A stretch of DNA of 29,298 bases from positions 1-29,298 of IMG/VR virus record IMGVR_UViG_3300020180_001233; one strand, given 5' to 3'. The translations under genes and the position numbers were made by a program. Below, piece after piece: positions 12,921 to 27,926 of the stretch. Numbering within the stretch: position 1 is the stretch's first letter; the number at the start of each line of letters is the position of its first letter. The notes beneath the pieces are model-generated. The model was not told where the DNA came from, searched no databases, and saw nothing but the letters and a program-made list of their open reading frames with translations. Source of the stretch: a virus.

Positions 12921-13724
12921 TCACCCGTGGGAGCGGATATCGTCTTGAAGTTGAGTGGCGAAGCCGCCAAGATCCACCGAACGGATGTAGTCAGTGCCAA
13001 ACTTCGAGAAAGCCTCAACCACCGCCACCTCCACCTCGGGTGAAGGCGACTCCGACTCCGGCACCGCCACGACTCGGGTCTCCGTGCCACCCGGGTTGTG
13101 TTCCATCTTGACCAACAGACCCTCCCCTGCAATCTTGATCGCCGCGTCGATCGCTTTCGCGTGACCTCGATCGAGTCGGCAAACCTTTACCATGGTGACC
13201 TGTCCGTTCTGGTAGGCCAGCGGAGAGTGAATCACCTTGTCGAGCGACGTGAGGGAAAACTTGTAGTCACGGAACACGTTGTGGCGAAAGCCAATCTCGA
13301 CTAGGGCCCTCTCAATGATCCTGGGCAAGCGGGTCTTGTGTCTCTGAAGGACGGGACACGGCGATAGGAACTCGTCGAAAAGCGATTGGAGCGTCGCCGC
13401 CGGGTCGTTGCTCCGAACGCCACGGGGAGTCGTCAGTCGAATTGCATTCCCGAGGCGCGACCCGTACTCAGCGAGCGCCTTCGAGTCCAGCACGTCTGGC
13501 CAGCGTCGAAGCCGCTCGGCTACCGACTGGGCCGCCGCAGCCAGGCTTGGTACGGACTGTTCCGACTTGAAGAGCTTCTCCGCCCTCGCCATCTCCTGGT
13601 CGACCCGTGCCCCGACGAAGCCTCGGTCGGGCACGATGAGCACCACCCCGACGTTCACGCGCTCATCGCGGGCGTCGTCCGGACAGACCTGCAAGAGGCT
13701 GTACCAAGCGGTGGGAGAGGTCAT
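12921..13724 (-). CDS. DUF3037 domain protein, partner of HipA-like kinase
   Basis: A 267-residue protein whose start (AWYSLLQVCPDDARDERVNV, then GVVLIVPDRGFVGAR) is the hallmark of DUF3037: tYsllqy.pd..r.E.vNvGVvl. DUF3037 genes are commonly found next to HipA-like kinase genes, as here. ATG 13724 overlaps the kinase stop by four bases, so the two are translated together. Molecular role unknown; it may be an antitoxin, a substrate or an adaptor. Base composition is less GC-rich than in the phage structural genes, pointing to acquired cargo. The gene runs towards the tail module, with the terminator region between. Confidence 0.8.
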   Translation of the reverse strand: MTSPTAWYSLLQVCPDDARDERVNVGVVLIVPDRGFVGARVDQEMARAEKLFKSEQSVPSLAAAAQSVAERLRRWPDVLDSKALAEYGSRLGNAIRLTTPRGVRSNDPAATLQSLFDEFLSPCPVLQRHKTRLPRIIERALVEIGFRHNVFRDYKFSLTSLDKVIHSPLAYQNGQVTMVKVCRLDRGHAKAIDAAIKIAGEGLLVKMEHNPGGTETRVVAVPESESPSPEVEVAVVEAFSKFGTDYIRSVDLGGFATQLQDDIRSHG

Positions 13725-14635
13725 GGGGTACGCGGCGTCGCGAAGCCGAAGAGGCCTTGCGCTCCTTGTCCAGCAAACGCATTCCGAGCATCGGTTATTG
13801 CGTCCACGACTCTATCGGCGAGGAACGCCGCTCGCGACGAAATCAGCCTCACCACGGCAGCCTCGGCATCCCGGGAAAGATCCCACCCTTCAGGGACCTG
13901 CTGGAGGAGACACAGCACGCGATCTGGAGTGAGCTGCTTCAGACGCCTCCGACATTTCTGGGCGACCACTACATCAAGTAGGCCCACCCACTCTGGGTAC
14001 AAGCCATAGATACCGTCGTCCTTGATCAGATCGACTAGGCACATGTGTGATGTGAGCTGGCGGCCGCTCGTGATGGCGTTCGAAAAGTCCATCGCGATGA
14101 GTTCGAGCTTGGCCTCGCGGGACCCGCCCACCAGACGGAGCATCACGTTCTCTAGGTTGGGCTTCCTGGAACTCGCGGCTGGGTGCTCGGCGGCCGAGTT
14201 GCTGCTAGCACGGCGAGGGTGTCGGTCGTTGTTCACCAGCAGGGTGTCGAGCACCACGAGCCTGGTCAGATCACTCAGGTTGGTGATCCGTCTGATCTGT
14301 CCAGGCGAACCGTCGTACGGGACCACGTGCTCCACCGTCGCCGTCGCCCATCCAACCCCCGGAGCGACAACTTCACCGTGCGAGTACCTCATCTCTACAG
14401 CCCCATCGTGTTCAAGCAGTGCCCACGTCAAAGTAGGAATCTGCAGGATCGAGGCAATCTGGGTACCGAGCAACTCGCAGACCAGCGCATGCGGGCCCAT
14501 CCTGTTCTCAGGCATCTTGAGGTACGCAGGGCCGGCGTCGGTCTCGACGACGAGTGGCGAAGTGCTCGTAGCGACAGCCCGCTCGAAGCGGTCGATCCGG
14601 CTGGGCTTCCATGTGGCAGGTCGTCGTCTCGCCAT
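13721..14635 (-). CDS. HipA-like serine/threonine kinase (HipA_2 type)
   Basis: A 304-residue protein with the compact HipA-like kinase layout. AYLKMPEN carries the likely ATP-contacting Lys40, followed by a helix with HALVCELLGTQIASILQIP. The catalytic loop is NNDRH (Asp137), with the downstream asparagine in PNLENVML (Asn160) after a 17-residue insert rich in Ser/Ala. MDFSNAI (Asp183) is the metal-binding DFx motif. All key residues are present, so it is probably active. HipA kinases phosphorylate aminoacyl-tRNA synthetases or related targets and stop growth; the target here is unknown. It is the first gene of a two-gene operon with DUF3037. No HipB-like repressor lies next to it. Confidence 0.75.
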   Translation of the reverse strand: MARRRPATWKPSRIDRFERAVATSTSPLVVETDAGPAYLKMPENRMGPHALVCELLGTQIASILQIPTLTWALLEHDGAVEMRYSHGEVVAPGVGWATATVEHVVPYDGSPGQIRRITNLSDLTRLVVLDTLLVNNDRHPRRASSNSAAEHPAASSRKPNLENVMLRLVGGSREAKLELIAMDFSNAITSGRQLTSHMCLVDLIKDDGIYGLYPEWVGLLDVVVAQKCRRRLKQLTPDRVLCLLQQVPEGWDLSRDAEAAVVRLISSRAAFLADRVVDAITDARNAFAGQGAQGLFGFATPRTP

Positions 14636-18392: not shown

Positions 18393-18464
18393 GGCGGGGT
18401 GGACCAGCAGTAGGTCGCCGGCCTCATAAGCCGGATGTCGCAGGTGCAAGTCCTGCTCCCGCTA
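18393..18464 (+). tRNA. tRNA-Met(CAT), initiator-like, phage-encoded
   Basis: The sequence folds as a complete cloverleaf. Acceptor GGCGGGG/TCCCGCT (G-T at both ends), D stem GACC/GGTC, anticodon stem CCGGC/GCCGG around the loop CTCATAA (anticodon CAT), a five-base variable loop, T stem GCAGG/CCTGC, discriminator A, no encoded CCA. It resembles initiator tRNA: the GGGTGGA 5' context, A11-T24 in the D stem and a weak first acceptor pair. Oddities: a seven-base D loop (AGCAGTA) without the usual GG, and T loop TGCAAGT with G at position 55, so the normal G18-Psi55 contact is lost. It could also serve as an elongator or be partly degenerate. Confidence 0.75.
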
Positions 18465-22684: not shown

Positions 22685-22953
22685 ACCAGTTTCAGTTTTC
22701 GATCGACTGCATCGCCAACCGCGGCGGCGCGGTCGATTCTCGGGACCTGCTCCAGTTCACGGATGCGCTGCAGGACGAGTTGAGCAGCTTGGTGATGATG
22801 ATCCGACAGCTGGAGAGCGAGCTGCGGCGAGACATCAAGTGTGCACAGGATCGGAGCATGGATCTGGAGTGGCGGGGCGAGGTGCTCGAGCGTGAGATCC
22901 GCGGTATGAAGGCCTCAGCCACGCAGTCGGTTGCGATGGGAGCAAAGCCGTGA
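22681..22953 (+). CDS. Small coiled-coil protein
   Basis: Ninety residues from ATG 22681 (ATGA overlap with the previous gene). Mostly helical with heptads: TDALQDELSSLVMMIRQLES, DLEWRGEVLEREIRGMKA. No recognised family. Its stop overlaps the excisionase GTG start, so it is coupled to it. Confidence 0.55.
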   Translation: MNQFQFSIDCIANRGGAVDSRDLLQFTDALQDELSSLVMMIRQLESELRRDIKCAQDRSMDLEWRGEVLEREIRGMKASATQSVAMGAKP

Positions 22954-23189
22954 CACAGCAGCGGATGGTCCAGCGGGGGGAGGCGGCGAAGATCCTCGGC
23001 GTGTCGACCGACACGCTCGATCGATGGTGGCGGCGGGGGGTCTGCCCCGCGCCCGTGGGTCGGTTCGATGACCGGAAGGGCCGACCGCGGATGCTCTTTT
23101 GGGCGGCCGAGCAGCTCACGACGTGGGCTGAATCCGGGATGGGTCCCGCCGCTCGACGCTCGCGCCGCCGCGAGAAGGAGCGATGCTGA
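22950..23189 (+). CDS. AlpA/MerR-like helix-turn-helix excisionase
   Basis: Seventy-nine residues with a winged helix-turn-helix of the MerR/AlpA type: RGEAAKILGVSTDTLDRWWR, then RGVCPAPVGRFDDRKGRPRM and a LFWAAEQLTTWA helix. Proteins of this kind bind att DNA and direct excision or regulate int. It sits directly before and overlaps the integrase gene, which supports an Xis role. GTG 22950 overlaps the preceding stop; the tail is very basic. Confidence 0.75.
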   Translation: MTQQRMVQRGEAAKILGVSTDTLDRWWRRGVCPAPVGRFDDRKGRPRMLFWAAEQLTTWAESGMGPAARRSRRREKERC

Positions 23190-24859
23190 TGGCACGCGGC
23201 GACATCTTCATGGTCCGGCCCGACGGCCCGTTCTACGCCATCTTCTTCGACTCGCGGAAGCGACGGTGGCTGCGCCGTTCGACGAAGACGAGGACCAAGG
23301 CCGCGGCCCGGGAGGTGGCGCGGCAGTGGCTTCACGATGGAGAGATGGTCGAGCTGGGCCGCGTCGATCGGACTGCGGACGCGCGGAAGACGCTGGAGGC
23401 CCACATCGGCGACTACGTGGCCATGAAGCGGCTCTCACCGAAGCAGGTGACGGCGACGCACATCACCAACACCGCGGATCACCTGCGGGAGCTGGCGGCG
23501 GCCGCAGGCTGGAAGCGGCTGGATGAGATCACGAGAGACACGTGGCTCCGCGGGCTCGAGCGGATGCTCGAGCTGCGGCGGGAGCGGGGGGCGGAGATGG
23601 CTGCCGACGCGGAGAAGCGGCTCGCGGCCCTGAAGTCGGACCGGATGGCGAGGAATGCCAGGGGTGGCCGCGAGCCGGTGCGGAGGGTGGTCGGGAAACT
23701 GCCGTCGGTCGCGCCGAGCAACAGCACGCTGCAGCACTGGCGCGCCTACTGGAAGGGCTTCATCCGCTGGGCCCACCGAAACGGCCGTGTGAGCGTTGAC
23801 GGCCTCGCTTCGCTCGAGAGCTGGGCCATCGTCGGGATGGAGCGGACGCGGCGCAGGGCGATGAGCGTCGATGAGATCGAGCGGCTGCTGTCGGCTGCCG
23901 GCGATGGTCCGACGCGCTGGAACGTCTCTGGCCGTGATCGGATGATGCTGTACCTGGTGGCGCTGTCGACGGGGTTCCGAGCCGGCGAACTGGCGACCCG
24001 TCGGGTCATGGACTTCATCCTTGATTCGGGGTCCCCTCACCTTCGGCTCGAGGCCCGATCGGCGAAGAACCGGAAGCCGGTCGAGCAGCGGCTGCCGCCG
24101 GAGATCGTGCCGATGCTCCGGCAGTGGCTGTCCGGTCGGTCGCGTGAGGGTCTGGTGTGGCCGGGGCTGTCCCAGTCGCCGGCGTCCCGGATGATCAGGA
24201 CCGATCTGCTGGCGGCGAAGGTCGCCCGAGTGGACGCGGACGGTCGGAAGCTCGACTTCCACGCGCTCAGGCACACCTTCGGGACCCAGATGGCGCGAGG
24301 CGGTGTGCCTCTGGTCGAGGCGCAGCGCGCGATGCGTCACAGCTCGCCGGCGCTGACCGCGAACATCTATACGCACGTCCAGAGTGGAGATCTTGAGGCC
24401 GCCGCCTCGAAGGCAATCGCCGGACTGCGCTGCGCAAATGTTGCGCGCGATGTGCGGTCGCCAGCGGTCGCCAGCGGTCCACGGCCGCAGGATTCCAGCG
24501 CAGCGCCGGAGTCGCAACCAGAGGAGTCGCCAATGAGTTACGTCAAAAACACCGAGGAAAACGGGAATGGGCTGGGTGGGATTCGAACCCACGTCGAACC
24601 GATTATGAGGCGAGATGTTGGCGACTCCCAATCTACGGCAGGGGGAGTGGTTGCGCGCAATGGTGCGGACAGCGCTGCGCCGGCGCTGCGCGAGGACGCC
24701 GATGCGACCGCCGACCAATCCAGAGATGTCGATTTCGAGCCCGATCCGAGCCTGCCTCAGCACGCCCGTGATCGTGCTGAAGCCGGAATGGAGCCGAGCG
24801 TCGATCGCGCCCTCAGGCCCATCTTCATGTACCTGCGAGAAGCGGGGGTGCTCAAGTGA
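23189..24859 (+). CDS. int: Tyrosine recombinase integrase with attP inside its 3' end
   Basis: A 556-residue tyrosine recombinase. The N-terminal arm-type domain (FFDSRKRRWLRRSTKTRTK) and a core-binding domain are followed by the catalytic domain with all six residues: Arg264 in STGFRAGEL, Lys293 in ARSAKNRK, His358 and Arg361 in DFHALRHTFGT, His384 in MRHSSP, Tyr394 in ANIYTHVQ. The fold ends near residue 412. A further ~145 residues are low-complexity and include GLGGIRTHVEP, which is the antisense translation of a tRNA 3' half, i.e. the attP core (codons ~460-474). ATG 23189 (overlapping the Xis stop, AGAAGGAG upstream) is preferred over ATG 23183. Integration would change the last ~80 codons. 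Confidence 0.9.
   Translation: MARGDIFMVRPDGPFYAIFFDSRKRRWLRRSTKTRTKAAAREVARQWLHDGEMVELGRVDRTADARKTLEAHIGDYVAMKRLSPKQVTATHITNTADHLRELAAAAGWKRLDEITRDTWLRGLERMLELRRERGAEMAADAEKRLAALKSDRMARNARGGREPVRRVVGKLPSVAPSNSTLQHWRAYWKGFIRWAHRNGRVSVDGLASLESWAIVGMERTRRRAMSVDEIERLLSAAGDGPTRWNVSGRDRMMLYLVALSTGFRAGELATRRVMDFILDSGSPHLRLEARSAKNRKPVEQRLPPEIVPMLRQWLSGRSREGLVWPGLSQSPASRMIRTDLLAAKVARVDADGRKLDFHALRHTFGTQMARGGVPLVEAQRAMRHSSPALTANIYTHVQSGDLEAAASKAIAGLRCANVARDVRSPAVASGPRPQDSSAAPESQPEESPMSYVKNTEENGNGLGGIRTHVEPIMRRDVGDSQSTAGGVVARNGADSAAPALREDADATADQSRDVDFEPDPSLPQHARDRAEAGMEPSVDRALRPIFMYLREAGVLK
24455..24479 (+). repeat. 10-bp tandem repeat near attP
   Basis: CGGTCGCCAG occurs twice in tandem (24455-24464, 24465-24474) followed by a half copy. 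It lies ~90 bases left of the attP core inside int and may be a recombinase or Xis binding site, or only a local slippage product. Confidence 0.5.
24568..24609 (-). other. attP core: 3' half of a tRNA-Met(CAT) gene
   Basis: On the - strand: anticodon loop CTCATAA (anticodon CAT), 3' anticodon stem, variable loop TCGAC, T arm GTGGGTTCGAATCCCAC, acceptor CCAGCCC and A. No matching 5' half lies upstream, so it is a half-tRNA, the classic sequence a phage carries to restore a tRNA gene on integration. The bacterial target should be a tRNA-Met/Ile2 (CAT) gene ending in the same 42 bases. Phage genes lie on both sides, so this is attP and not attL or attR. Confidence 0.8.
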
Positions 24860-25362
24860 CCATCGACGTCGAGACCAACGCCCACGATGCCTCACCCAGG
24901 CCAAAGCCGTCGGCGAAGTCGGCAGCGCGGCCAGGCAAGCCCCACCGCATCTGCGGCATGTGCAGATGCTTCGACTGGGGCCGGTCGAGGACCAGATGCC
25001 CGCATTGCGGCGCCATCTGGGGAGTCGGACTCGAGCCCCACATCGCGAGCGAGGCGATGGTGGCAGTGATCCAGTCCGGCGTGCTCTGGCGAATCCGCGC
25101 GGTCGCCGACGGCAACCCACGCCAGCCCAGGGTCGGCTTGTGGGTCGTGGAGTCGTTTGGCTATATCACCATCGCCTTTCCGACGAGGCGTTCAGGGGTC
25201 CGCCGATCTAAGGCTCGGGGGTGGACGATTCCGCGGTGGTTTCCCTCCGCCTGCGTGCTGGCCACCAGCAAGCAGGATCGATTCCTGCTCCTGCAGGACA
25301 TCGTCGAGATCGGGCCGCCCGCCGAGATCGGGCCGCCCGCCGAGATCGGTGGTGCAGGATGA
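24856..25362 (+). CDS. Zinc-ribbon protein of unknown function
   Basis: A 168-residue protein. CGMC and CPHC (about residues 33-50) form a four-cysteine zinc ribbon. The rest includes VLWRIRAVADGNPRQPRVGL and a strand ESFGYITIAF. It ends in the tandem peptide EIGPPA twice, from an 18-base DNA repeat (25306-25341). Its N-terminus (DVETNAHDASP) is nearly identical to that of the next gene, so a duplication joined these starts. GTG 24856 overlaps the int stop; in an integrated prophage the attP break would separate this gene from int and its upstream promoter. Confidence 0.6.
   Translation: MTIDVETNAHDASPRPKPSAKSAARPGKPHRICGMCRCFDWGRSRTRCPHCGAIWGVGLEPHIASEAMVAVIQSGVLWRIRAVADGNPRQPRVGLWVVESFGYITIAFPTRRSGVRRSKARGWTIPRWFPSACVLATSKQDRFLLLQDIVEIGPPAEIGPPAEIGGAG
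25306..25349 (+). repeat. 18-bp tandem repeat at gene end
   Basis: GAGATCGGGCCGCCCGCC occurs twice (25306-25323, 25324-25341), followed by 8 bases of a third copy. It is in frame and gives repeated EIGPPA. Likely variable by slippage. Confidence 0.8.
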
Positions 25363-25877
25363 GGCACGACGTCGAGACCAACGCTCACGACGCTTCGCCC
25401 GCCGCAGCGGGCATGGGGGCATGGGCGGGCTCCCAGCCTCGGGGCCCGTCCGGATTCCCGCAAAGCGTCGCGATCGAACTCGCTGGCGCGAGGCGGAAGC
25501 ACGCGACCCCAGTAGCGTCACTGCACGAGGGCTACGCCATCATTCAGGAGGAGCTCGACGAGCTGTGGGATCTGGTCCGGCGCAAGTCGCGGGACCGGTC
25601 CGACGAGGCCCTCTACGAGGAGCTCGTCCAGATCGCGGCGATGGCGCAGCGCGTCGCCGATGACCTCGGGATCGGGACGCGCGCGATGCGTTCCACGGAA
25701 CAGACCTGGTTCCAACGACTCCAGCACGCTCAGCTCGAGTCACGCCTCGATCGAGCCCGGGTCCAGGCCGTCAACGAAGAGATGCGCAGCCTCATCCGCG
25801 AAACCGAGCGGCTTGAGGCCAAGTTGGCTCGCCTGCAGGCGCCGGCAGCGAAGCGCAAGAAGGGAGGGAGGCCGTGA
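25359..25877 (+). CDS. MazG-like phage protein
   Basis: A 172-residue protein. The core (HATPVASLHEGYAIIQEELD, ELWDLVRRKSRD, EALYEELVQIAAMAQRVADD) resembles all-alpha NTP pyrophosphohydrolase-like phage proteins. EELDE matches the EExxE metal motif, but the usual second ExxD reads ELVQ, so metal binding may be altered or lost. A coiled-coil region follows (EEMRSLIRETERLEAKLARL), ending KKGGRP. The N-terminal ~12 residues duplicate those of the previous gene. ATG 25359 overlaps the previous stop. The family is a pattern call. Confidence 0.55.
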   Translation: MRHDVETNAHDASPAAAGMGAWAGSQPRGPSGFPQSVAIELAGARRKHATPVASLHEGYAIIQEELDELWDLVRRKSRDRSDEALYEELVQIAAMAQRVADDLGIGTRAMRSTEQTWFQRLQHAQLESRLDRARVQAVNEEMRSLIRETERLEAKLARLQAPAAKRKKGGRP

Positions 25878-26278
25878 AGCCGAAGCCCGTCGAGGTCACG
25901 TGGGAGCAGCTGGTCGCAGCGATCGAGGGTCAGCGGCCGGAACTGCTGCGCGTCGCGTGTGTCGAAGGTAGGAGCGATATCGCCTGCGCGCAGCTCGTCC
26001 TGGAGGCGCTCTGCCGCCGCGCGTTCGACGCGGGCGAACAGGACGTAGTGGCCAACACAGACGGGGTGTGTTCAGTCGCGGGATCAATGGAGCGTGGTTC
26101 GGGTTGGGCGTGGTGCGCATACCGCAGTGAGGGTGGTAACCGAGTCTTCGTCGGTCCAGCTGCGTGCGCCGCGGCACATGCGTGCGCCGTTGGAATCGAT
26201 TTCAGTGACGGCATCCTGTCACCCGAGGCACCGCCTGGCGCCTCGCCAATGCCAAACAAGAAGGGAGGCCGGCCGTGA
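25874..26278 (+). CDS. Unknown protein, tandem paralogue A
   Basis: A 134-residue protein from GTG 25874, preceded by GGGAGG. It begins MKPKPVEVTWEQLVAAIEGQ, has VLEALCRRAFDAG in the middle and ends with AACAAAHACAVGIDFSDGIL and KKGGRP. The next gene is a paralogue with the same blocks. No known domain; the conserved His/Cys near the C-terminus may be functional. It overlaps the MazG-like gene by four bases. Confidence 0.6.
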   Translation: MKPKPVEVTWEQLVAAIEGQRPELLRVACVEGRSDIACAQLVLEALCRRAFDAGEQDVVANTDGVCSVAGSMERGSGWAWCAYRSEGGNRVFVGPAACAAAHACAVGIDFSDGILSPEAPPGASPMPNKKGGRP

Positions 26279-26757
26279 GGCGAAAGCCGGTCAAGGTCAC
26301 GTGGGAGCAGATCGCCGCAGCGGAAGGGAGGCCGGCCGTGAGGCGAAAGCTGGTCAACATCACATGGGAGGAACTCGTCGCAGTGATCAATCGGCAGCGG
26401 CCGGAACTGCTGTACGTCGGTGATGGCTCGGTCGCGGCGAGTAGCTATCAGCCCGTCAACCCCCGGGAGCAGCTCGTCATCGAGGCGCTCTGCCGCCGCG
26501 CGTTCGACGCGGTCGACCTGAACGTCTGCGTGGCGTCGCCGGATCGACAGAGTCCGGATGGCGCGTACATCGCTTACCGCCCACCGGGCAATGCCATGGA
26601 GTTCATGGGTCCGGCTGCATGCGCCGCGGCACATGCGTACTGCGTTGGGATTGATTTCAGTGACGGCATCCTGTCACCGGAGGCACCGCTGGGCGCCTCG
26701 CCATCTTCAGAGGCGCGCGGTAGTCACTCCGAAGGAACGGAGGACACGACCAGATGA
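26275..26757 (+). CDS. Unknown protein, tandem paralogue B with remnant of a third copy
   Basis: A 160-residue protein paralogous to the previous gene (IEALCRRAFDAVD, AACAAAHAYCVGIDFSDGIL). Its N-terminus carries the gene start twice: RRKPVKVTWEQIAAAEGRP at GTG 26275 and RRKLVNITWEELVAVINRQ at GTG 26338, each behind GGAGGCCGGCCGTGAGG. The first is a 21-codon stump of a third copy, now fused in frame. Translation may start at either GTG; 26338 gives the length closest to paralogue A. No known function. Confidence 0.6.
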   Translation: MRRKPVKVTWEQIAAAEGRPAVRRKLVNITWEELVAVINRQRPELLYVGDGSVAASSYQPVNPREQLVIEALCRRAFDAVDLNVCVASPDRQSPDGAYIAYRPPGNAMEFMGPAACAAAHAYCVGIDFSDGILSPEAPLGASPSSEARGSHSEGTEDTTR

Positions 26758-27926
26758 GCTCACGACGACTGACCAAGAAGCTGGACCTCTGCGCAGCGGC
26801 CCGGCTCTCGCACCTGATGCGAGAGCGAGAGGCCGCCGGCAAGTCGACCGTGACGCCCTCGACGGCCAAGGCAGTGCTCTGGTCCCTGGTGAACTGGTCG
26901 GACGACGAGGGCGTGTGCTGGCCATCGATTGCCACCATCGCCGACGACGCCGACGCGTCCGAGCGCACGGTGCAGCGGGTGATCGCGCTCCTCGAGGATG
27001 AGCGCATCCTGCAGGTGCGGGATCGAACCAAAGGAGCAGGCGCAGGGCAGAAGCGGGAGGGCGAGCGAGGCGCGACGAACCTCTACCGACTCGATTGGGA
27101 CGCGCTCGAGCTGCTCGCCCGACCGGGGCGCAAGAACGCACGTCAGGATGACGCCCGTTCAGATCAGGACGGACGACACGCTGACGTCCGAACAGACGAC
27201 ACGCTGGCGTCTGAACGGACGCCAGCGGAGACAGGAACGGACGCCAGCGGAGACAGGAACGGACGCCAACCCAGCGCGCCTCTAAGGAGGAACCTCCTAG
27301 GAACCGCCATAGATCCCCCCCCAGCCCCCACGGGGGGAGAACAGCGGGGGGGGGATCGGTTCAGCGACACACCAGCGGAGACGTCGACCATCCGCGACTT
27401 CGCCCTGGCCGTGCTCGAGGCCTACCCGACGACGACGAGCGACGTGTACGAGCGCGACCTCGATGCTGTCGGCGAAGCGATCGAGCTAGAACGCACCACA
27501 TCGGAGCGGATCACCTGGTCGGAGATGCGGGACGCGGCCGTGGCGGTGCGGAAGGCGGCGCCGACCAACCCGATGTACCTGCGGAACTGGGCCAAGGGAC
27601 GCGGGTACGTGACCGCGGCGCTCACAGCCCGGGCCGTCGCCGAAGCCGCTGCGAAGGCACAGGCGAAACGCGACGCCGCGGTCGGTCGCGATGACGCGGA
27701 TCGGGCTGCGGCGGCCGCGGAACGGCAGCGCGTCGACGGGGTGATCAGCTCGTTGACGGATGAGGAGATCGAGCGATTCCGGGTGCTGGCCATCGACCAG
27801 GCGACGCCGTTCCAGCGGCGGCTGCTCGAGGGGGCCGACCTCGTGAAATCACGCGCCCTGCGGCTTGCGATTGCGGGCCTCGCCGAAGCGTGGCGACGCG
27901 ACGCGGAACAGCGAGGTGCGGCATGA
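26754..27926 (+). CDS. Helix-turn-helix replication initiator-like protein
   Basis: A 390-residue protein. Residues ~35-100 form an HTH_36-type winged helix: AKAVLWSLVNWSDDEGVCWP, SIATIADDADASERTVQRVI, ALLEDERILQVRDR. This is usual in phage replication initiators of the lambda-O type. Residues ~128-210 are low-complexity and encoded by iteron-like repeats. The C-terminal half is helical (TIRDFALAVLEAYP, then Ala/Arg-rich coiled coil). ATG 26754 overlaps the previous stop. The DNA repeats suggest that the origin lies in the gene and is bound by its product. Confidence 0.65.
   Translation: MSSRRLTKKLDLCAAARLSHLMREREAAGKSTVTPSTAKAVLWSLVNWSDDEGVCWPSIATIADDADASERTVQRVIALLEDERILQVRDRTKGAGAGQKREGERGATNLYRLDWDALELLARPGRKNARQDDARSDQDGRHADVRTDDTLASERTPAETGTDASGDRNGRQPSAPLRRNLLGTAIDPPPAPTGGEQRGGDRFSDTPAETSTIRDFALAVLEAYPTTTSDVYERDLDAVGEAIELERTTSERITWSEMRDAAVAVRKAAPTNPMYLRNWAKGRGYVTAALTARAVAEAAAKAQAKRDAAVGRDDADRAAAAAERQRVDGVISSLTDEEIERFRVLAIDQATPFQRRLLEGADLVKSRALRLAIAGLAEAWRRDAEQRGAA
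27172..27268 (+). repeat. Iteron-like direct repeats, candidate replication origin
   Basis: There are two families. A 23-bp unit beginning GACGACACGCTG is at 27172-27194 and 27195-27217 (three differences). A 22-bp unit beginning GGACGCCAGCGG is at 27217-27238 and 27239-27260 (identical), with an 8-base third start. CTGGCGT (27204-27210) and ACGCCAG (27219-27225) also form an inverted repeat. Tandem ~22-bp repeats inside an initiator gene are the layout of lambda-type origins. Confidence 0.65.
27283..27357. repeat. Inverted repeats with G/C homopolymers next to the iterons
   Basis: AGGAGG-AA-CCTCCT (from about 27285) is followed by GAT with eight C (27312-27322), an inner C5/G6 hairpin (27325-27337), and nine G with ATC (27346-27357), giving an 11-bp perfect outer stem. 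It could act as an origin hairpin, primer site or transcription block. The sequence is in frame within the initiator gene (PPPAPTGGEQRGG). Confidence 0.6.

Follow-up and report, generated by a model that had tools for sequence, protein, structure and literature searches.

An attachment site within a phage integrase gene and the integrase tail that integration would replace

Organization of the integration locus

The window, the whole stretch of DNA analyzed here, is a linear IMG/VR record of 29,298 nucleotides. The features around its integrase gene (int) are as follows.

22950..23189, + strand: xis/Uoi-like gene for a MerR-type HTH protein (Pfam MerR_1 and HTH_17; PHROG excisionase phrog_66, 6.6e-7)
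23189..24859, + strand: int, tyrosine integrase (PF00589, phrog_1, residue alignment)
24371..24567, + strand: linker from the catalytic Tyr394 to attP, modeled as disordered from residue 417 onward
24568..24609, - strand: attP core, tRNA-Met(CAT) 3' half from anticodon loop to discriminator base (39/42 identical to the tRNA-Met of genome G179)
24603..24609, - strand: anticodon loop CTCATAA, end of the host-tRNA homology in the G179 comparison (int codons ~472-474)
24610..24859, + strand: int tail beyond attP, ~82 codons, predicted to be lost on integration (best of six frames, borderline; predicted helix 539-551)
24856..25362, + strand: orf168, whose start overlaps the int stop (GTGA) and is supported by a shared N-terminus
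25359..26754, + strand: three more ORFs with overlapping stop/start codons (ATGA/GTGA), starting at 25359, 25874, and 26275
26754..27926, + strand: replication initiation O-like gene, repO (HTH_36, 2.9e-10; phrog_391, 3.4e-20)

The int ORF (23183/23189-24859, + strand) is uninterrupted and comprises 556 codons from the ATG at 23189 or 558 codons from the ATG at 23183. Its product was assigned to the tyrosine integrases by PF00589 (2.6e-20) and phrog_1 (8e-40), and R264, K293, H358, R361, H384, and Y394 (numbering from 23189) were invariant in the alignment of the relatives described below. This R-K-H-R-H-Y set and the catalytic fold, both present in the window Int, place it among the PF00589 tyrosine recombinases. 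Whole-protein scans with int revealed no close relative, and the model of a more distant one (L171) matched the XerA, Tn1549, and lambda integrases in the PDB. In the AlphaFold2 model of the window Int, residues 417-517, which include the part encoded by attP, showed pLDDT values below 50, and a C-terminal helix was predicted at residues 539-551 (pLDDT ~73-81). As modeled, the window Int is laid out on the plan of its relatives: a catalytic domain is followed by a disordered linker, which includes attP, and by a helix at the C-terminus.

The xis stop overlaps the int start (TGATG), and rightward of int the overlaps continue at 24856 (GTGA), 25359 (ATGA), 25874 (GTGA), 26275 (GTGA), and 26754 (ATGA), repO being the last gene in the series that begins with xis-int. 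Support for placing the orf168 start at the int stop comes from the N-terminus xxxDVETNAHDASP, which orf168 has in common with the next ORF (window 24856-25877 for the pair) and whose 11 codons DVETNAHDASP differ between the two genes by synonymous changes only. The ORF after orf168 contains what we take, from reading its sequence, to be a MazG-like helical stretch. Two adjacent paralogous ORFs (VTWEQ...; GPAACAAAHAxxVGIDFSDGILSPEAPxGASP) at 25874-26757 appear to be a duplication. Promoter and terminator scans of the + strand around attP gave nothing usable. Since the stop/start-overlapped series spans xis-int to repO, integration at attP would part xis-int from the rightward early genes, and this part of the original prediction follows from the window sequence.

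The attP core lies, as had been predicted, within the int frame and past all six catalytic residues. It begins ~66 codons downstream of the catalytic Tyr, occupies codons ~460-474, and is translated in the antisense direction as NGLGGIRTHVEPIM. The minus strand of 24568-24609 reads CTCATAATCGGTTCGACGTGGGTTCGAATCCCACCCAGCCCA with the anticodon CAT; in the tRNA sense its 42 nt are composed of the segments CTCATAA, TCGGT, TCGAC, GTGGG, TTCGAAT, CCCAC, CCAGCCC, and A, all positions of which are canonical. It is not credible that a canonical tRNA half of 42 nt arose here by chance. ARAGORN found no complete tRNA at the core, which indicates an attP-like site rather than attL or attR.

A search for the core at the end of a host tRNA gene had been proposed, and it was successful in part. 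The best host match was the tRNA-Met(CAT) gene of the Phycisphaerae genome G179 (L148; elongator tRNA-Met), which is identical to the core at 39 of 42 positions, and an exact 38-mer of the core had no match in 84,980 species genomes or in IMG/VR. The true attB was thus not found in these collections, nor was an integrated copy of the window phage found in the genome and viral collections searched. Beyond the anticodon loop the G179 tRNA-Met matched the window at 12 of 32 positions, which corresponds to background. The homology ends exactly at this loop, as it does in an attP that crosses over within the loop; such sites form a common class among tRNA integrations (PMC4383910), and the core repeats of the relatives likewise end at or near the loop. 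It is therefore likely, judging from these alignments, that the anticodon loop at 24603-24609 is the region of strand exchange.

Lysogeny that depends on a phage tRNA was considered and rejected. In that system a short core (~10 bp) fails to rebuild the host tRNA and the phage supplies a tRNA of the same isotype (PMC10865867); the core of the window is a full 3' half of 42 nt. The window does contain a complete tRNA gene with the anticodon CAT at 18393-18464 (+ strand; Rfam tRNA, 60.2 bits), which has the anticodon of the attP target and a different sequence. A tRNA-Gly called by ARAGORN at 25207-25296 was discarded because Rfam did not support it.

After the exact core searches had given nothing, the host was approached through relatives of the capsid. 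Capsids ~60% identical to that of the window occur in Phycisphaerales genomes, which makes a planctomycete a likely, not proven, host of the window phage. The integrases of the capsid-related phages are of a different, short-tailed type, and relatives of the replication gene added no useful context. Elsewhere in the window, a DUF3037 gene adjoins a HipA_2-like kinase gene (12921-14635, - strand) on the strand opposite to the structural genes, and the two look like a cargo or defence pair.

Integrase tails in planctomycete relatives

Planctomycete genomes were searched with the integrase and IMG/VR with an alignment, which yielded 85 usable ORFs after removal of one duplicate. The generality of what follows rests on these relatives, which are ~25-43% identical to the window Int and whose counts come largely from draft genomes. 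The length of the tail past the catalytic Tyr was bimodal: 47 ORFs had short tails of 10-72 residues and 38 had long tails of at least 92, with a gap between 72 and 92. With a detector that accepted four of five stem pairs of a tRNA fragment, an antisense tRNA T-arm was found in 32/38 long tails, typically 81-111 codons past the Tyr, and in 0/47 short ones. Homologues that end near residue ~415, which the original prediction had set against itself, do exist as the short-tailed group without a tRNA piece, and the long-tailed group carries one in the proportion just given. By this sequence criterion, attP within int is the rule for the long-tailed class.

In most genomic cases a complete tRNA gene overlapped the 3' end of int, which marks the junction of an integrated copy, and the tRNAs concerned were Ser, Asp, Leu, Thr, Cys, Arg, Lys, Met, and SeC. 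The new end of Int after integration, a short piece encoded by antisense tRNA or by the host, differed by host and by tRNA frame, and all catalytic residues were retained. The rewriting of the Int C-terminus, which had been predicted and follows from the window sequence, is thus directly visible as an end swap in the integrated relatives. In one relative (L169) the attP in the 3' tail is a tRNA-Arg-like 5' half in the sense orientation, as opposed to the usual antisense 3' half, and the tail module described below is still in frame. As a separate observation, contig 1 of Planctomycetes bacterium syqfu (G054) carries a series of ~10 short-tailed integrases, all much alike and all on the same strand, over ~0.6 Mb (2.55-3.17 Mb; e.g. 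L133, L145).

To obtain free forms, attP was rebuilt in 13 elements by locating the second core copy and joining int to the sequence after it; only the attP junction was rebuilt. These elements are mostly 7-17 kb long, with one of 31 kb, and reside in tRNA-Ser, Thr, Arg, Asp, Cys, and SeC genes. A repeat near L247 (81% identity, 3.6 kb away) was rejected as an att pair and excluded from the counts. The int frame continued through attP in all 13 rebuilt forms and in three natural ones. Past attP, 13 of these 16 free forms encode a helical hairpin with the motif W-x2-LP-x2-(I/V)R-x2-I, always in the int frame, so that the frame through attP, whose conservation had been in question, leads into a conserved module. 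Among the rebuilt forms the module, as W-x2-L(P/T)-x2-(I/V/L)(R/K/Q)-x2-(I/V), was present in 10/13, in the int frame in 10/10 and in other frames in none; the natural uncut viral contigs (L169, L171, L206) had it in frame in 3/3. Unrelated loci gave a background density of 1.7e-6 motifs per residue. One rebuilt form (L235) was without the module, and the other two (L226, L239) had in common a different tail module with two similar halves (ERAAI..H...L / S..KRAAI..LT). The tRNA was read through in all three frames (16/11/5). That int and tail stay in phase even though the tRNA is crossed in any frame is a strong argument for translation across attP.

In related tRNA-Asp elements the dN/dS of the module was 0.11-0.32 as compared with 0.58-0.81 for the linker, a rough estimate from three sequences only. 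In the AlphaFold2 model of the L171 free form, the catalytic domain was confident, residues 427-536 with attP were disordered, and the C-terminus formed two helices with pLDDT of 85-88. No Pfam family covers the module. When genomes were searched with a profile of the module, orphan copies, most of them within short open frames, turned up in 62 of the 101 Phycisphaerae-order genomes; the 61 genomes from the phylum to which a Fimbriimonadales genome belongs gave none. An antisense T-arm opened the same frame upstream in 18/30 orphan loci versus 3/30 on the control strand; the 30 loci include six attR sites already rebuilt. From this arrangement, an orphan module after an antisense T-arm is read as the piece left behind at attR.

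The tail of the window Int shares only its layout with the relatives: the W-x2-LP-x2-(I/V)R-x2-I module is absent from it, and no relatives of it were detectable. Its codon score was the best of six frames yet borderline (0.065; 6.7% of non-coding frames exceed it). That the 82-codon frame is open was rejected as evidence, since the DNA is rich in G+C and the same region contains an antisense ORF of 561 aa. Because the window tail has neither the module nor detectable relatives, its function rests on analogy. Given a G179-like tRNA, the end of a hypothetical lysogen Int would start ...EPIMSRWLWAAELPAP, which is meant as an illustration only.

Possible role of the exchanged tail

In the free genome, int would be read through attP into the C-terminal tail. 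Int-catalyzed recombination between the host tRNA gene and the tRNA-Met 3' half, with the crossover at the anticodon loop, would integrate the phage and restore the host tRNA. The integrated Int would keep its whole catalytic domain and acquire an end made of the antisense 5' tRNA half and host DNA, while the lost tail would stay at the opposite junction together with orf168 to repO; excision would give the tail back to Int. If the tail promotes integration, or contacts with a partner, the Int of the lysogen would be weaker or altered. Integration would then serve as its own directionality control and would here also uncouple int-xis from the replication genes.

We consider it probable, at about 0.66, that the window carries a temperate-phage integration module with attP in int, the severed tail of which promotes integration or partner contacts. 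Most relatives conserve the piece that is removed, whereas the end gained is arbitrary; these sequences are therefore most simply read to mean that the tail matters for integration: it would be needed when Int acts from the free genome and be dispensable or unwanted in the lysogen. By analogy, we infer that the swapped tail may control Int activity, with oligomerization, partner binding, or stability as its possible points of action. More tentatively, planctomycete tRNA-targeting elements in general could possess a severable Int with a conserved C-terminal hairpin, which Int would bear only in the free circle and lose by its own crossover within the disordered linker; this would constitute a self-limiting, DNA-encoded directionality switch usable with many tRNAs and in any frame; this generalization falls somewhat short of being probable.

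The arrangement may instead persist because a compact cassette of gene plus site transfers well, the tail being a passive, tolerated read-through and the two forms of Int being alike. Compactness has been argued for in a review of archaeal systems (PMC8371274), and the idea agrees with the integrated Int, which has all catalytic residues and a new end that is different per host and tRNA frame, and with the window tail, which lacks a conserved motif. However, a passive tail would not have kept a two-helix module in frame with int in 10/10 module-bearing rebuilt forms and in all three natural ones, and the low dN/dS of the module is unexpected for it, which makes this explanation unlikely. The constancy of phase also bears on the idea that int normally ends earlier and that the module forms an independent small gene, which has a start codon of its own and is expressed in the lysogen. 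Although ATG, GTG, or TTG precede the module in some orphan tails, several tails have no start before it (e.g. L122) or TTG only (L225, L227), and in 13/13 forms the module remains in phase with int, whichever of the three frames the tRNA is read in; a separate gene is thus very improbable.

The protein end could also be incidental to the genetic wiring, if the main point is that attP cuts an early operon and parts the replication genes of the lysogen from a putative xis-int promoter. The overlapping stop/start codons that join xis, int, and the five downstream ORFs to repO are consistent with this, as is the same gene order in the Myxococcus phage Mx8. On the other hand, a coupled downstream gene is not a consistent feature of the relatives, mostly of ~7-17 kb and one of 31 kb, and the module is still conserved in them; we regard wiring as the main point as quite unlikely. 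Finally, the record is a linear fragment, and the junction might belong to a tandem or hybrid of two elements at one tRNA instead of a free attP. Phage genes on both sides, the overlap of the int stop with the start of the next phage gene, and the absence of a complete tRNA render this most improbable.

Comparison with known systems

An attP within the cognate integrase gene has been described as very rare (PMC4701971), and Mx8 is the standard bacterial case. The present comparison suggests that a large class of planctomycete elements is commonly built with attP in int and that the piece which integration removes is conserved and not junk; no planctomycete paper on this architecture was found in the searched literature, which takes in few subscription journals. 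With dozens of natural Int pairs, each comprising a free and an integrated form, the role of an Mx8-type end swap, a question of long standing, becomes open to comparative testing. The scheme would further explain why some integrases have antisense-tRNA peptides, e.g. GGIRTH and GFEPT, at their ends and why orphan W..LP..IR reading frames lie beside tRNA fragments in planctomycete genomes.

SSV1 had been proposed as a precedent, and the likeness is partial. The archaeal suicidal integrases of the SSV1 and pNOB8 type also have the attachment site in the integrase gene, which is altered on integration; the integrase is partitioned, and an unbroken copy is believed to be required for excision (PMC8371274). 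SSV1 integrase is, however, split through the catalytic protein, whereas the whole catalytic domain would stay in one piece in the window, to which Mx8 is closer. The streptococcal ICEs in rumA differ from the window in that they use a serine integrase and a protein-coding target, with no tRNA. In the integration-dependent immunity of mycobacteriophages, the gene altered is the repressor. As in that reported system (PMC4929511), attP of the window lies in a coding sequence and integration would change the C-terminus of the product, but the gene is int and not a repressor.

In Mx8, as in the window, a MerR-like gene, uoi, overlaps a tyrosine int and is followed by small genes and a replication initiator, and the Mx8 Int of 533 aa is similar in size to the window Int. 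Its attP lies inside the int ORF, and integration changes the Int C-terminus and alters Int activity according to reviews (PMC6070905, PMC4701971). The trait of the Mx8 type, a tRNA-half attP in int past the catalytic residues, is present in the window at 24568-24609. BLASTP between the Mx8 and window Int detected no similarity (best E = 1.3), and the Mx8 tail lacks the module of the planctomycete relatives. Mx8 further differs in that its host belongs to another phylum and that function was measured in Mx8 and is a prediction here. The closest precedent is nevertheless Mx8, which is alike in gene order though not in integrase sequence.
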